From Planoprotostelium fungivorum (taxonomy: Eukaryota > Evosea > Variosea > Cavosteliida > Cavosteliaceae), in the NCBI GenBank assembly GCA_003024175.1, contig MDYQ01000001.1, positions 372,001-436,000 on the forward strand: a stretch of 64,000 nucleotides of DNA. The letters are read 5' to 3'. The notes under the pieces were generated by a model. That model was not told where the DNA came from and did no database searches. It was given only the letters and a program-made list of their open reading frames with translations. The position numbers and the translations under genes were made by a program. The first letter of the stretch is position 1. Every line of letters begins with the position of its first letter. This document shows, piece after piece, positions 13,716 to 64,000 of this stretch.

Positions 13716-13787
13716 TGACCCCTGAGTGACTTGAACACCCAACCTTCCGATCTGGAGTCGGATGCACTGCCATTGTGCTAAGGAGCC
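13716..13787 (-). tRNA. tRNA-Trp (CCA)
   Basis: A complete 72-nt cloverleaf with no intron. The acceptor pairs GGCTCCT/AGGGGTC with two G-U wobbles; the D stem is GCAC/GTGC, the anticodon stem TCCGA/TCGGA with loop CTCCAGA (anticodon CCA), and the T arm GGGTG-TTCAAGT-CACTC. A run of seven Ts follows on the minus strand as the Pol III terminator. It is identical to the copy at 29322-29393 and shares the 5' flank CAACACCA. Confidence 0.95.
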
Positions 13788-29321: not shown

Positions 29322-29393
29322 GGCTCCTTAGCACAATGGCAGTGCATCCGACTCCAGATCGGAAGGTTGGGTGTTCAAGTCACTCAGGGGTCA
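29322..29393 (+). tRNA. tRNA-Trp (CCA)
   Basis: Identical over all 72 nt to the minus-strand copy at 13716-13787, with anticodon CCA and no intron. A run of seven Ts at 29397-29403 acts as the Pol III terminator. The 5' flank CAACACCA is shared with the other copy. Confidence 0.95.
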
Positions 29394-50499: not shown

Positions 50500-53400
50500 A
50501 TGGAAAATGAGACGACACAAAACCCGCCATCCCCTCCGTCAATCAATCAGACGGTAGTGCCTTCAGCACCGCCCACTCCGTCATCATCCGCATTTTCTTG
50601 GATGTCCATGTCGAGATGGAAACTGCTCGTCGGCTCTACGCTCTCAGAAGAGGGAGAGAAGGAATCAGATATTATCGCACCGATTCAACCACTTCCTTCA
50701 GAACCAGCTCCCATTCCGGGCACAGATCCCACTATTCCATTAGACTTCAGTCCTCCTTCTCCCGCAAAGATTATGAAGGCAGATAATATCATCACTCCAA
50801 AGAAGAAGGACGAGATCAGAGGTGCACTGCAAGTCCGATTTAAGAGTATCTTCCACACCGAAGAGAGATCGTTCGTGGTCGATGGCTCTTCACCCGATCA
50901 GTCCGTCGTTCACAACATCGCCATGCATTTAGAGAGCGAGAGAAGAGACAATGGAATGTCATCATCGAGACAGCCAGAGCCACACGTTAGAAGCAATCCC
51001 ATGATAACCCATCTGAGAGTCACTGCCATGCCTCCGTTCGATCTCAGATTACTCAAATTTCCTGAAGAATTTACCTCTTTGTTGACCCTGCAGGTGAGCA
51101 TCATTCATTTCCATCGCCATCCTTTTTCCTCTTCATCACGTAACCACCGCAATCATCAGCACATTTCAGAATGTAAGATGATGATACTCAGGCTCTTCAC
51201 CTGGATTTCCACGACTTTCAAACTGTTCCCGCGAAGATATCTCAACTGGTACGTCCGATACCTCTGTACACTCCGCTGATCGCATCAGGCTCATCTGAAA
51301 GAATTGAACATGTGCAACAACGGTATCAAGTACATACCTGAATTGAAGTCCATGTCAGGATTACAACAATTAAATCTATCCAATAACAAGATCACCTGGG
51401 TACCATCTGTACAAGGTATGACTCACCTGGAGGTAGTGCACGTGAGTTGTAATTCATCACCGATCGAGCGGGAAATTCATCGAAAATTCATCGCGGGAGA
51501 CTGAAACATGCGACAGCTTCAGAGGAATCAACTGAGTCTCTTACCCACCCACCTCGACGACTGTCTACAACTCGCCATCCTCCACGCCCACCACAACCGC
51601 ATCACCACCTTCCCCGATATCGCCAATCTACAACGCCTGCAGCGGATCGATTTATCTCACAATTTAATCGGGTCCATTCAGTACCGCAGAGAGGCTCCAT
51701 CACCCTCCCACCCAGATCTGATCTACGTCAATCTATCACACAATCGGATAACTGGTTCGCTCGGTCACCTCGACAGCTTCATTGCAGTGAGAGAGCTCCA
51801 CTTGTCCAACAATGCCATCACACAACTACCAAAGGAGATATCTCACATGATATCTCTGGTCCTGCTGGACGTGTCGCACAATCAGATCACGAGCCTCCCG
51901 GGTGGTCTGGCCAATTGTAGATCGTTGACTTCGGTCAACTTGGCCTGCAATCGTCTGAGCTACCTGTACTGTTCTGAGAACGGCAACGACCTCTACCCCC
52001 TCTCCAACTTACCCCTCCTGGAGAAATTAAATCTCCACGGCAACCAATTACCCGATGGAGATTCCATGGGAATCCTTCCTAAGTCCCTCCTGACACTCGA
52101 CCTGTCATCCAACCACTTATTATCCGCACCCATTCAACTCAACCAGCTCGTCCGTCTACAACGGCTCGATCTGAGTAACAATCTCGTCTCAGAGATCGAC
52201 GTCTCCTTCTTCGATACGACAAAGGGTGATGGAGAAGCTCTGGGACTCAAGTGTCTAAAGTACCTGTACATGTCACACAACCACTTGAGGGAGATTCCGT
52301 GGAACATTGGAAACGTCACCACGCTGGAGCAATTGGACCTGTCGGACAATACGCTCGTTTACGTACCGTCGTCGCTGGCTTTCCTCTGCAATTTGACGAC
52401 TCTCATGCTCCACTCTTCCAAGCTCATCTGTATACCCATACAGCTGCCTACATCCTTACAGGTGAGTGAGATCTCGATGAAATCTCACGCTGATGACGTC
52501 ACAGGTGCTATCTTTAGCTTCCATCGTAATCGATCGACCGAGGAATGAGATCCGATTGTTACAGTCCATTAATATTCCACCCACCACCGGAATCTCCCAC
52601 AACACTCCACACAAAGGTGCGACCCCGAGATATCTCGTACGACGTCATGACCCAAACTGCAGAACACGTCAGCAACGTTCTGGACATGGATACCACGGTA
52701 CACAATCCACTGGAGACTTCTGACCCATCCGTACTGTCTGCCCAAGTAAGATATCACACGAGATATCGTCTGAGGTACCACAGGTGGTCACCCTACTCAA
52801 TTGCGCTCGGACGACCTGCCTCTACAACTCGCGAGATAAATCGGAAGACAAGGAGGCCATCACGGAAGAAGAAGGCACGGTAAGCTACCGCGACATCGTC
52901 GGTAAGGGTCTGGCACTCAACGAATTGAACCGCCGGACGTGCAGCGTGGACGACGTGCAGTTGAACGTGGTCGATGTGGTGATGGAGGAATCGAATCAAT
53001 CGATGGAATTATCTCCCATCATCGTCTTTGGGTTACTGTACTGCTCTACACATCCTGTTCTGAGGGATATCTTGGTCATGAATCACGCCATACGTGATTT
53101 CTACAATCTATTGTGAGTATCATGTGATCAAGAAGAGATGAAAGATATGATACTTAACGATTGATATGAATTATATAATTGAATTGTGATCAGAGATGAA
53201 TGATATATTATATGATGATATCGTTTATCATGATTTACATATGAGGGTAGAAGATTGACGGATAGATAGGGACATCTACAAGAGTGTAGATCACATGAAA
53301 TTGGACATCATCGTCATCCTGTGCAACCTGTACAAACACAGTGAGATCTCGACCGATTTAGAGTATCCCACGGAGGGTGTCCACACGCTCTTATCAGAGG

Positions 53401-59086: not shown

Positions 59087-59424
59087 AAATAGACGTTACG
59101 ATGACACGGATGATGTGTTCCTCTTGGTGCAGATCAAGTCTTCGTGTTTGAAAGTTTGTGCACTGTCGGGCTGTGATTGAACAAGCTTCGGTATTACCGA
59201 TCGGCATCATCCACATTAACCCCAACATAGGAGATAATCGTTTTATGGTCTTAATGAGGATCTCTTCGCAGGATCAATGAATCATACTCTCCAGCGTCGA
59301 TGGTGGTTGGTGTGTTGACATCCATGGAGACTGTGAGTAACCTTTCTTGATAGAAAATAGGATGGAAATTCGGGCTTCTACAGTTCATTCCTCAGACCTC
59401 CACAATTCCAGCCATCGCAACACC
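59087..59424. promoter_or_regulatory. intergenic region upstream of the tripeptidyl peptidase gene
   Basis: 338 bp, no gene seen. The element CACATTAACCCCAACA at 59211-59226 resembles CACATTAACCCCAAAC at 8323-8338. Confidence 0.4.
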
Positions 59425-62400
59425 ATGAGAATCACAGCAGCAACCATCGCTGCGACGTTTTTACTCTTCATCACGCAAACACAATGTACTAATCGTCACG
59501 TGTTGATGGAACGATACGAGGTGACCCATATCATCACATTGGGAGGTTTTCTACGTTCAGCTCTTCCACCTTATACATCCACCGATGCTGGATCCACAAC
59601 TCAAGATCGTCACAGGTGCCCGAGGGTTGGACTCTCACATCAAAGGCACCCTCAGATCTCATCGTCAACTTCACCGTCTTATTCAAGTGATATACGATGC
59701 AACCTTGTCCTCCATCTGATCTTTTACAGACAACGCAATTCCGACATCTTAGAGAAGAAATATTGGTCTCTCAGTCATCCTGACTCAAAGGAATACGGCC
59801 AGTGGTTGACCATCGAACAGATACACGACCTGATCGGGCATCCGAGACAGTCGTTCGAAGCCGTCGAAGATTGGCTCCATTCTCAGGATGCATTAAGAAC
59901 GGTTCGAGGCATCGATTACATCCGGGTGACCGTCCATCCCTCATCTTGTTCCACCATCGCCTCCATCGGCATCCATATTGATGTTCTACGAATCAGGTCA
60001 GTGGCCCAGTCAATTCCATAGAGAAATTGACACAAGCACCCATCCACATCTTCACTCACAATGGAACGGGAGACGAACGAGCCAGATCGCATGGTTCCAT
60101 CACCATCCCAATGCATCTCTCCCATCACGTCCATCAGATCTACGGTCTCACAGAATTATCCATCGCGAGACTCACAGTGAGTCCTCGATAGAAGATGATC
60201 GCATGCCGTTCTCGTGATTGACATCATCAATCAGACGAAGCCCATCGAGATGGCTGCGAAAGATTCGACGAGGGTGACACCTCCAATCATTCGAGAATAT
60301 TACAAGATGCACAAGAGAAGCCACAACACGAATCGAACCAATTTGCAGGGCATCATCGCCTTCGACCGCTTCTACAACCCTCGTGCTCTCCGAGTGGGTG
60401 ACGTAGAATGACGTCATCAACTGACTCGTTGTAGTTGATGATCGAGGATCAAGGTTTACCCCCACCGAACATCACGAGCATCGGAAAATTCTGCTTCTCC
60501 ACGACATGCGACACCGGAGAATCTGATTTAGACATGCAGTACATCACCACCATAGGTGGTGACGTGTGATGACGTCATCATCTGAGGAGAGACAGGTGCC
60601 GGTACAGATACCGTCTTCTTAGATGTTGGAGGAGGCTATTGGGTGTTGGATTTCGTACACAGGGTGAAGATTCTTGGAATATTCTGACACGTTTCGTTGA
60701 AAAGTGTAGGCGGTAGAATTAGCATCGCAGGGACGTAAGGTGTTGGTGTGGTCCATTTCATATGGCTATTCTGAGTTCAACCAATGTGTCCTCTCTCCTT
60801 CTGCTTGTGCTAAAGTGAGTGAATTCGATGGTGGATATCGTTCTCATGTCATCCAGTTGGGTTATTCGACTGAAGCTTACATCAATCGAACAAACATTGC
60901 ATTCCAAGCTCTCGGGTGATTTTTCTTCTTTCATATTATTTCTCGTTCGTTTTTTATTTATGAATAGAAAGAGATCAAAAATAAATATGATTTCCTCTGA
61001 TTCGAATAGAGCCATGGGTGTCACTGTCCTCGTTGCCAGTGGGGGTGATGACGTCATCATTTCATTCGAATGAAATTGACTCGTTGTAGACGACGGCGCC
61101 ATCGGACTGTACGAGAACACCGGAAACTGGAACAGCGACCCATCGGTGAAATTTCCTCCAATTTTCATCTGAATCTCCCAGCGTTACTGTCCACTGGGAG
61201 GCTGCGGTCACACTACAACGTCTTGCGGTGTACTCAGCATAAGAATAATTACCAACCTGAGAGAGGAAGATCCTTGTCACTATCCATCTGGTGTTCGCAG
61301 CGGCACGTGCTCTCGCATAACCAACCTGAAGGAAGACTTCTCCGATATTGTGCAGAAATACCAACCGGTGACTCATCTACAACGTTGTAGACGTGACTGA
61401 CCCCACGATCAGACGGGATGCACCTTGTCGGTGGAGAAAGACAAGGATAATTTTCCACACTTGTACTCTACTTGTGAGTGCTCCAAATTATCAGCGGCAA
61501 CTGTCGTCTCTGCCGCTAAATTTACGTATCGTGTGGAAGGATTCATCGAAAATCCGAATCAGACTGTATTCGTTCCAGATTACCCGGCCAGTAGCCCGTA
61601 CGTAACGAGGTGAAATTTCGCGTGGATATCGTGGAGTTGACAAAGACAGTGTGGGGGCGAGTGACACGGATGAGAGGGAAGAGGTGGTGGCTTCTGTTGC
61701 AGATGGTTGTACCATCACTTCTGGAGGAGGTATGATCTTTCCTCGTTTATTCGCTCTACAACTCCATTTATTTTCCCCTATTTCACTTTTATTCATTTTT
61801 CTCAGGATTCTCCGCTTACACACCTCGCCCTTCCTTTCAAGATGCAGCGGTGACCTCTTGGCTGAGGAAACAAAGAGATAACCTGCCTAAAACGGGAACT
61901 GATCACCAGACAAAGAGAGGCTACCCAGATCTGGTCTTCTTAGGATGTGGTTACAAAGTGTTTGGAATCGAAGCCAGCACACAGAAGACACAGATGATGT
62001 GAGTTGCATTCGAGTGGAAGAGAGTGACGCGTTGTAGATCGGCGAGCGGTACGAGCGCCAGCGCACCCGCTTTGGCGGGAATGATTTCGGTCATCAACGG
62101 TTGGCTGTTGAACAACGGACAAGCTTCCCTGGGCCCTCTAAATCCTCTATTTTACAAGGTGATATCTACATCGATGGATGTCATTCTGATGTTCTGATGA
62201 AAGATGGCGGCCGAGCGACCATCTACATTCAAAGATATCACAAGGGGAGACATCAAGTGCAATCGGATGATGTGCTCCGAACGAGGTTACACCGCGATAG
62301 AGGGGTGATCTACAACGTTGTAGATCCTCGATTGACTCGTTGTAGATGGGATCCCGCCTCCGGTTTGGGCTCCCTCCGCTACCCTGAATTTGTACAATAT

Positions 62401-62666: not shown

Positions 62667-62940
62667 GGCAGAACGAAGTGTCATCTTCTCTTGTCTATCG
62701 TATTACCTCCAAATTCAAGGACAACCAAGTCGAAGTCGAATGAATAAGATCTTCTGACATGGAATTGTCGGTGTATAGGTGTTTGGAAGCCAAAGGTGGA
62801 GATCCATATTCATCCTCCATCGTTTGGAAAATGCGATGCCATCACGCGAAAATTGCGCCCCCACCCTGGAAGATGCGCTGGGGTTTACCGTGACTTCATA
62901 TTCATTCCAACTACTGTACCCCATCAACAACACGCAAACC
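62667..62940. other. short intergenic gap
   Basis: Upstream region of the repeat-peptide gene. The same frame is open upstream to 62779, but the signal peptide starts at the ATG at 62941. Confidence 0.4.
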
Positions 62941-63534
62941 ATGAAAGTCTTACTACTCACCCTCGGCCTCGCAGTCTGCCTCGTCTCTGCTGGCAGCTTC
63001 GCTGCAGAAGGACCTGCAGGAGCCGTCGCTTACAAATCCAACGAAGCATCTCGTCTGTTGGCCATCGCTAGCATCCTCAGAGGAGGAGAAGATGACGCCG
63101 ACGATCGCGGACTTCTCTCCGACATCAACATCATCGGAAACTTCATCGGAGGAAAGAAGAACAGAATCGACGCCATCAACGACTTTGGCGGAGACTTCTC
63201 CGGTGAGACACATCGTGTGGAGGTGAAGAGTCTCACTCGTGCAGGCTTCGGCAACAAGAGAAACTTCCTCAGTGGAGCTTTCGGACAGTCTGACGACGAC
63301 TTCGTCTTTGACCTCGTCCAATCTATCCTCGCCCGCTCCAACCGTGGTGAGTTGAGGACATGATCACGAGATGATGACGGAAGAGCAGCTGGTTCTTTAA
63401 AGAGATCCAGCGGATCTGCCGACCCTCTTTCCATCCTGAGAGACCTCAACGTCATCGGTAACTTCATCGGAGGAAAGGAGAACAGAATCGATGCCATCAA
63501 CGGATACAAGGGCATCGGCTCCGGCGCTTTCTAA
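62941..63534 (+). CDS. secreted repeat-containing peptide precursor, novel
   Basis: Signal peptide MKVLLLTLGLAVCLVSAGS, then about 150 residues without cysteines. A motif occurs twice: INIIGNFIGGKKNRIDAIND and LNVIGNFIGGKENRIDAING. The first is followed by GFGNKRNFLSGAF, the second by IGSGAF at the C-terminus, a shorter form of the same tail. Lys-Arg pairs (GNKRNF, SLKRSS) sit between units and could be processing sites. Three exons (about 62941-63203, 63245-63348, 63403-63534). This looks like a prepropeptide with duplicated mature peptides (pheromone, antimicrobial or toxin-like). No known family is recognised. Confidence 0.7.
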
Positions 63535-63691: not shown

Positions 63692-64000
63692 TCATTTCTT
63701 TTTCATTTTGCCCTTGTCTCCCTGCTCCTTCTTTCCCTTCCCCCGTGTGGCAAAGTACCCCTCCACCAACTTCCTGATCTTGGGTTCCGTCGTTGGTGTG
63801 ATGTAATACTTTCCATCTTCCTTGTCCATCACCTTGTGCGTCAACTTCCTCGACAGCTCTTTAAACTTCTCCTGTCCTCTCTATCAGCTCCCTCTTCTCT
63901 TCCTCTTCTTCACCTTGTCTTTGATCTGTCCTTGGTTTCTGTATTTACTGAGGACATTCACCACGATCGCAGATGCTTCTGCCTTGAATTTGATCCTCCT
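63692..64000 (-). CDS. Set2-type histone H3K36 methyltransferase, C-terminal SRI domain (partial)
   Basis: The C-terminal end of a longer gene running off the right edge. The frame IKFKAEASAIVVNVLSKYRN, then (after an intron at about 63879-63920) EKFKELSRKLTHKVMDKEDG and TEPKIRKLVEGYFATRGKG matches the SRI domain, including the characteristic F(K/x)LxRKLTH. SRI binds the phosphorylated RNA polymerase II CTD in Set2/SETD2. The SET domain is not in the window. Lysine-rich tail, stop TGA 63692-63694. Confidence 0.75.

Follow-up and report, generated by a model that had tools for sequence, protein, structure and literature searches.

Gene model and layout of PROFUN_00178

What is made from the product of PROFUN_00178, a short gene of the amoebozoan Planoprotostelium fungivorum (class Variosea; also named Protostelium aurantium var. 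fungivorum in the excerpted text of PMC10445921), whose protein carries the same unit twice with paired basic residues in between? A preliminary description of the window, by which we mean the whole stretch of 64,000 nucleotides analysed here, placed the gene at 62941..63534 and proposed a secreted precursor with the layout of a peptide prohormone, an antimicrobial peptide or a secreted signal. We found start and stop codons exactly at these two ends. Our gene model contains two 42-nt introns, the first of which had been taken as coding.

62941..63534, +: CDS of PROFUN_00178, ATG at 62941 and TAA at 63532-63534, three exons
62941..63202, +: exon 1, encoding signal peptide, pro-region and U1
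62941..62991, +: signal peptide MKVLLLTLGLAVCLVSA, recognized by eye as a hydrophobic N-terminus ending in SA, common to the family
62992..63111, +: pro-region, residues 18-57
63112..63202, +: unit U1 LLSDINIIGNFIGGKKNRIDAINDFGGDFSG, the last G codon split by intron 1
63203-63244, +: intron 1, 42 nt, phase 1
63245..63346, +: exon 2, phase 1-1, encoding FGN-KR and most of the middle peptide M
63256..63261, +: first KR (K92-R93), presumed kexin site
63262..63405, +: M plus its closing KR (NFLSGAFGQ...AGSLKR), with intron 2 inside
63347-63388, +: intron 2, 42 nt, phase 1
63389..63534, +: exon 3, encoding the end of M, the second KR, the U2 fragment and the stop
63400..63405, +: second KR (K126-R127)
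63406..63531, +: 42-residue C-terminal fragment holding U2
63433..63531, +: unit U2 ILRDLNVIGNFIGGKENRIDAINGYKGIGSGAF

The spliced product is 169 residues long and matches the NCBI protein exactly from an internal methionine onward, and the splicing derived here agrees with that of NCBI in all six family proteins compared. NCBI starts PROFUN_00178 35 residues upstream of the signal-peptide methionine (62836-62940, +), and three other NCBI family proteins are extended at the N-terminus by 41, 58 and 108 residues; these starts look mis-called.

The protein thus reads, in order, signal peptide, pro-region, U1, KR, M, KR and a 42-residue C-terminal fragment with U2; the fragment between both KR cuts comprises 34 residues and ends in KR. 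The two repeat copies NIIGNFIGGKKNRIDAIN and NVIGNFIGGKENRIDAIN share 16 of 18 residues and are not a chance resemblance, because the same pair recurs in eight further loci of the genome, the paralogs that the preliminary description had suggested looking for. The KR sites that it placed between the copies are likewise present. Its assignment of a tail ending in GAF to the first copy had to be revised: U1 ends in FGGDFSG, followed by FGN-KR, and the GAF (in NFLSGAFGQ) lies beyond KR, in M, and does not correspond to the end of the second copy. The claim that the protein lacks cysteine holds for the mature part, which contains none, and fails for the signal peptide, which has one. One cysteine is also found in the middle peptide of each of two relatives introduced below, C149 and P0008.

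Directly upstream of PROFUN_00178, an ORF at 59341-60018 (+) matches the pro-kumamolisin activation domain (E 3.4e-12) and is probably a sedolisin-type protease gene. Downstream, a minus-strand ORF at 63692-63844 gives a weak match to the SRI domain, below the cut-off (E 0.02); a ribosomal protein gene was looked for on this side and not borne out. The window also contains two tRNA-Trp (CCA) genes of equal score on opposite strands (13716-13787, - and 29322-29393, +) and a 347-aa open frame of leucine-rich repeats (51505-52545, +; LRR_4, E 8.7e-33).

A family of at least nine loci

DNA and protein searches of the 36.86-Mb, 471-contig assembly revealed at least nine loci that share the plan of PROFUN_00178, a count that is a lower bound. 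Each of the nine is interrupted by two introns of phase 1, 37-75 nt in length. The proteins of C462 and C55 do not differ, and their regions show 98% identity over 7.3 kb; for C467 and C18 the identity is 97% over 2.9 kb. Since the two members of each pair may be separately assembled haplotypes or recent duplicates, we counted seven distinct genes.

Comparison of the 13 distinct units, including those of the metagenomic relative P0008, showed that 8 of 31 positions are invariant (N10, G13, G14, N17, R18, N23, G27 and G31). Furthermore, a KR begins 2-4 residues past the end of U1 at all nine loci and in P0008. The probability of finding KR within the first six spacer residues after shuffling was 0.01-0.03 per gene for the seven distinct genes, values that are not independent because the genes share ancestry. 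Five proteins (those of the window gene, C27, C149 and C25, and P0008) have the second KR exactly 42 residues from the C-terminus; their M is between 34 and 52 residues long, and the last fragment stays at 42. At the other five loci (C462, C55, C59, C467 and C18, or three of the seven distinct genes), the second KR is absent at its place: in C59 it is found 69 residues before the end, and the remaining four have none. The first cut therefore looks universal as judged from these sites and the second does not, so that release of U2 would not be common to the whole family.

No conserved dibasic site precedes U1 in the seven distinct genes compared, so U1 would leave inside a chain of 59-77 residues, which is long for a hormone. 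The basic pairs conserved within U1 (KK at 72-73, KR-like) presumably escape cutting.

Upstream of the start codon of PROFUN_00178, a (C/T)ATATTCAT element is located at 62897-62906 (+). Five genes (the window gene, C27, C149, C462 and C55) have it about 42-63 nt ahead of the ATG; in C25 it sits farther out, near -132, and none was found upstream of C59, C467 and C18. By itself the element is not significant in the window, where its single match was equalled in 32 of 100 shuffles.

The units are conserved and the spacer diverges

We compared substitution rates among five close distinct genes (window gene, C27, C149, C462 and C25), that is, in 10 pairs. dN was 0-0.03 in U1 and 0.01-0.05 in U2, compared to 0.42-0.95 in the stretch between them. 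The dS of the units ranged from 0.20 to 2.64 and was often lower than that of the spacer, hence the resemblance of the units may owe something to gene conversion or codon bias as well. For U2 of C462 and the window gene, dS reached 2.64 with a dN of 0.05, a contrast that is due to purifying selection. Conversely, in the spacer of the pair C27-C25 dN exceeded dS (0.81 vs 0.47), suggesting that constraint may be missing from part of the spacer.

A metagenomic relative carries three copies of the middle peptide

A search with residues 150-286 of P0001 returned 6 of 210 candidates, five from P. fungivorum and P0008, a 261-aa protein encoded by a 917-bp JGI contig (E 2.8e-35, 37% identity). P0008 consists of a signal peptide (by eye), pro-region, U1, SSKR, three successive KR-closed copies of M (M1-KR, M2-KR and M3-KR) and U2, with the 42-residue U2 fragment again following the last KR. 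The alignment scores of M1-M2 (62) and M2-M3 (50) were equalled by none of 2000 shuffles, and that of M1-M3 (33) had a P of 0.003. The M peptides of C27, C149 and C462 match M1 and M2 (0 of 1000 shuffles each), so that M is conserved among these three genes and P0008. Those of the window gene and C25 match only M3 (P 0.003 and 0.004, respectively), not M1 or M2, and those of C59 and C467 match no copy of M in P0008. Descent of M from U was considered and rejected, as only 1 of 12 comparisons reached a P of 0.03.

The frame of P0008 runs uninterrupted through the places of the P. fungivorum introns, indicating a transcript or an intronless gene. Exon 2, which has phase 1 on both sides and carries KR and M, could duplicate in frame, and we infer that such duplication would fit the triplication in P0008. 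No relatives of P0008 were found among viral contigs.

How far the family extends

An initial protein search drew 6 proteins out of 4921 candidates, every one from P. fungivorum. P0008 escaped it in spite of a length within range, hence the protein searches are not exhaustive. Among shorter proteins, the sole return from 5357 candidates was P0007, 70 of whose 72 residues equal the exon-1 product of C467. P0007 and P0008 are homologues from outside this genome, so that a lack of homologues in relatives, which the preliminary description named as counting against it, does not apply.

Its statement that it knew of no family with this motif also held in the databases searched. Pfam gave no family at its cut-off for three and then seven family proteins, NCBIfam had no match among four, and no credible relative was found in the PDB, where the profile search gave three matches (best E 0.037 over 11 residues). 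We judged these PDB matches and the sub-cut-off Pfam matches to be due to chance. In open-licence literature, neither PROFUN_00178, 06703, 08394 or 10901 nor the string GNFIGG is mentioned; the titles and beginnings of abstracts surveyed name nothing of this family, and it is solely with respect to this literature that we describe the family as unnamed in print.

Candidate processing enzymes, codon usage and properties of the units

C116 carries the gene for a kexin-type convertase, whose catalytic piece matches kexin structures (E 7e-31) and whose P domain is over the cut-off. A copper-monooxygenase-like locus on C281 scored over the cut-off for the C-terminal family of copper monooxygenases and below it for the N-terminal family, and its only PDB match was dopamine beta-hydroxylase (E 0.07). 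Amidation by PAM is unsupported: the locus is at most a candidate for the amidating enzyme, and GKR follows U1 in only 2 of the 7 distinct genes.

Using four actin genes as the reference, codon adaptation was 0.34-0.56 for the nine family genes vs 0.15-0.27 for a background of six exons with known domains. Recoding the family proteins with background codons lowered adaptation to 0.24-0.26 (P at most 0.004). We left 31 window ORFs out of the background, the majority being unproven as exons; a Pfam match was obtained for 4 of the 20 window ORFs scanned. The codon adaptation of the nine genes suggests that they are expressed.

An AlphaFold model of the full-length window protein was unusable (pLDDT 34). 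The unit alone was modelled as a single helix spanning residues 2-29, a hint only at a pLDDT of 62. Averaged over the unit columns, hydrophobicity has its maximum at 105 degrees per residue (P 0.04), amphipathicity of single units was not significant (P 0.07-0.59), and neither was helical periodicity of unit conservation (P 0.43). It is plausible from these models and profiles that the units form an amphipathic helix. Their net charge ranges from -1 to +2 in the seven distinct genes and lacks the clear positive value that a cationic antimicrobial peptide would need.

PROFUN_00178 as a probable kexin-processed precursor

We propose, with a probability of about 0.68, that PROFUN_00178 encodes a secreted multi-peptide precursor that is processed by kexin in the manner of the fungal KEX2-processed repeat proteins (KEPs). 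After removal of the signal peptide, a convertase of the kexin/furin type would cut after KR in the secretory pathway. The cuts would free an N-terminal chain ending in U1 and the middle peptide M, in one copy or, in P0008, three, and genes with the second KR would also release the 42-residue peptide carrying U2. U1 and U2 would be the conserved active parts, perhaps amphipathic helices with an extracellular action. The peptide-prohormone layout of the preliminary description is well supported by the KR after U1 at all nine loci, the KR-bounded M triplicated in P0008, the constant length of the last fragment where the second KR is in place, the kexin gene and the lack of a known family above cut-off. 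The contrast in dN between units and spacer, the phase of exon 2 and the codon adaptation also speak for the processing reading. Against it stand the small number of modules in the window gene (no more than two U units and a single M), the absence of the second KR from its place at five of nine loci, the lack of a conserved dibasic site ahead of U1, the limited matches of M to the copies in P0008 (M3 alone for the window gene and C25, none for C59 and C467), the spacer of C27-C25 with its dN above dS, and the basic pairs within U1 that would have to stay uncut.

The likeliest role would be that of an autocrine or paracrine signal between amoebae, followed by that of an abundant self-associating surface peptide. 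The near-neutral charge and near-invariance of the units lead us to rank a signal first, a coat-forming peptide second and an antimicrobial third; signalling in particular is a possibility that we put somewhat below even odds. Since a signal, a coat, an antimicrobial role and a two-chain protein all accept processing at KR, confidence in these alternatives overlaps with that in the precursor itself.

Processing would be the same, and only the role would differ, if the KR-cut peptides were amphipathic, Rep1-like building blocks that self-assemble in a cell, spore, cyst or stalk coat and do not signal. The nine loci, the codon adaptation suggestive of an abundant product, the single modelled helix and the hydrophobicity peak all favor such a surface or matrix system, and in the excerpted text of PMC6339444 the 37-aa Rep1 peptides control hyphal wall properties. 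However, eight invariant positions, all polar or glycine, are more specific than assembly by itself would need, and single units are not significantly amphipathic; we regard a coat as rather unlikely, though a contender. Lytic helices directed at fungi or bacteria, with the pro-region or M as a neutralizing part, would suit the hint of an amphipathic helix and the diet of P. aurantium, a fungivorous amoeba. The antimicrobial option of the preliminary description is nevertheless weakened by the net charge of the units and by their strong conservation. Defence peptides usually change fast, unlike these near-invariant units, and we find this role improbable.

The two remaining alternatives concern the cuts themselves. 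A single cut after U1 could leave two chains held together by their homologous helices, with M as the connector, a cysteine-free version of the proinsulin layout. The first KR at nine of nine loci, compared to the second at its place in four, and a spacer that diverges fast between frozen units are what one would expect of such a protein. On the other hand, M is conserved in C27, C149, C462 and P0008 and in P0008 is triplicated together with its KR, neither of which a mere linker needs, and the full-length model lends no support to a pairing of U1 with U2. We hold a two-chain protein to be unlikely, more so than a coat. If, finally, the product were an uncleaved secreted protein with two repeats, the KR pairs would be incidental; the lack of the second KR at its place at five of nine loci agrees with this, and cleavage at KR is a prediction from sequence. 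Yet the placement of KR is kept within fast-evolving spacers and KR closes each copy of M in P0008, which makes this reading about as improbable as the antimicrobial one.

Comparison with known peptide precursors

The kexin-processed reading invites comparison with KEPs, alpha-pheromone precursors and Ustilago Rep1, with which the window gene shares a signal peptide (by eye), a pro-region, KR-bounded peptides and a kexin in the genome; P0008 adds repeated KR-closed modules, and the sequence is lineage specific in both cases. According to the excerpted text of the KEP survey (PMC6339444), a KEP has a signal peptide and no further transmembrane segment, a layout suggested by eye for the family and P0008; in-silico cleavage at KR or RR must yield at least four fragments, at least three of them similar and together accounting for at least 15% of the protein, and KEPs are placed at the base of the opisthokonts. 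The window gene is not a KEP by these rules: it gives three fragments, with two U-bearing fragments and one M where at least three repeats were required. It also differs in combining two unit types, U at both ends and M between, and in its amoeba host, the likeness being one of layout. P0008, with five fragments and with M1, M2 and M3 similar to one another (P 0.003 or better; 3 x 38 of 261 residues), would pass the fragment and repeat counts, its similarity having been assessed by alignment shuffles and not by the FIMO step of the survey. The convertase on C116 provides the KEX2 protease that the survey expects in the genome.

Animal neuropeptide and hormone precursors likewise have convertase sites between conserved peptides, fast-changing stretches and variable copy number. 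Unlike them, the family lacks a conserved glycine directly before the dibasic site, as seen in amidated neuropeptides, with a literal GKR after U1 only in C25 and C59; its peptides are 34 residues or longer and match no Pfam family. Among Amoebozoa, SDF-2 of Dictyostelium is made from AcbA, an acyl-CoA-binding protein, by TagC, as described in the excerpted text of PMC7934950. It resembles the peptides predicted for PROFUN_00178 as an amoebozoan extracellular peptide produced by proteolysis, and differs in its precursor and protease and in that no repeats or KR modules appear in that description.

Peptides cut by kexin from repeat precursors have been described mainly in animals and fungi. It is conceivable, although we consider it doubtful, that Amoebozoa have kexin-based multi-peptide precursors whose peptide number rises by duplication of exon-sized KR-peptide modules, with U1 and U2 as a new class of peptide ligands. 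If true, prohormone-style peptide production would reach beyond the opisthokonts, into amoebae. Such a precursor family in a solitary, fruiting, fungus-eating amoeba would offer a handle on the origin of peptide signalling or peptide coats around the point where animals, fungi and amoebae diverged; it would also provide candidate ligands for amoebozoan receptors.
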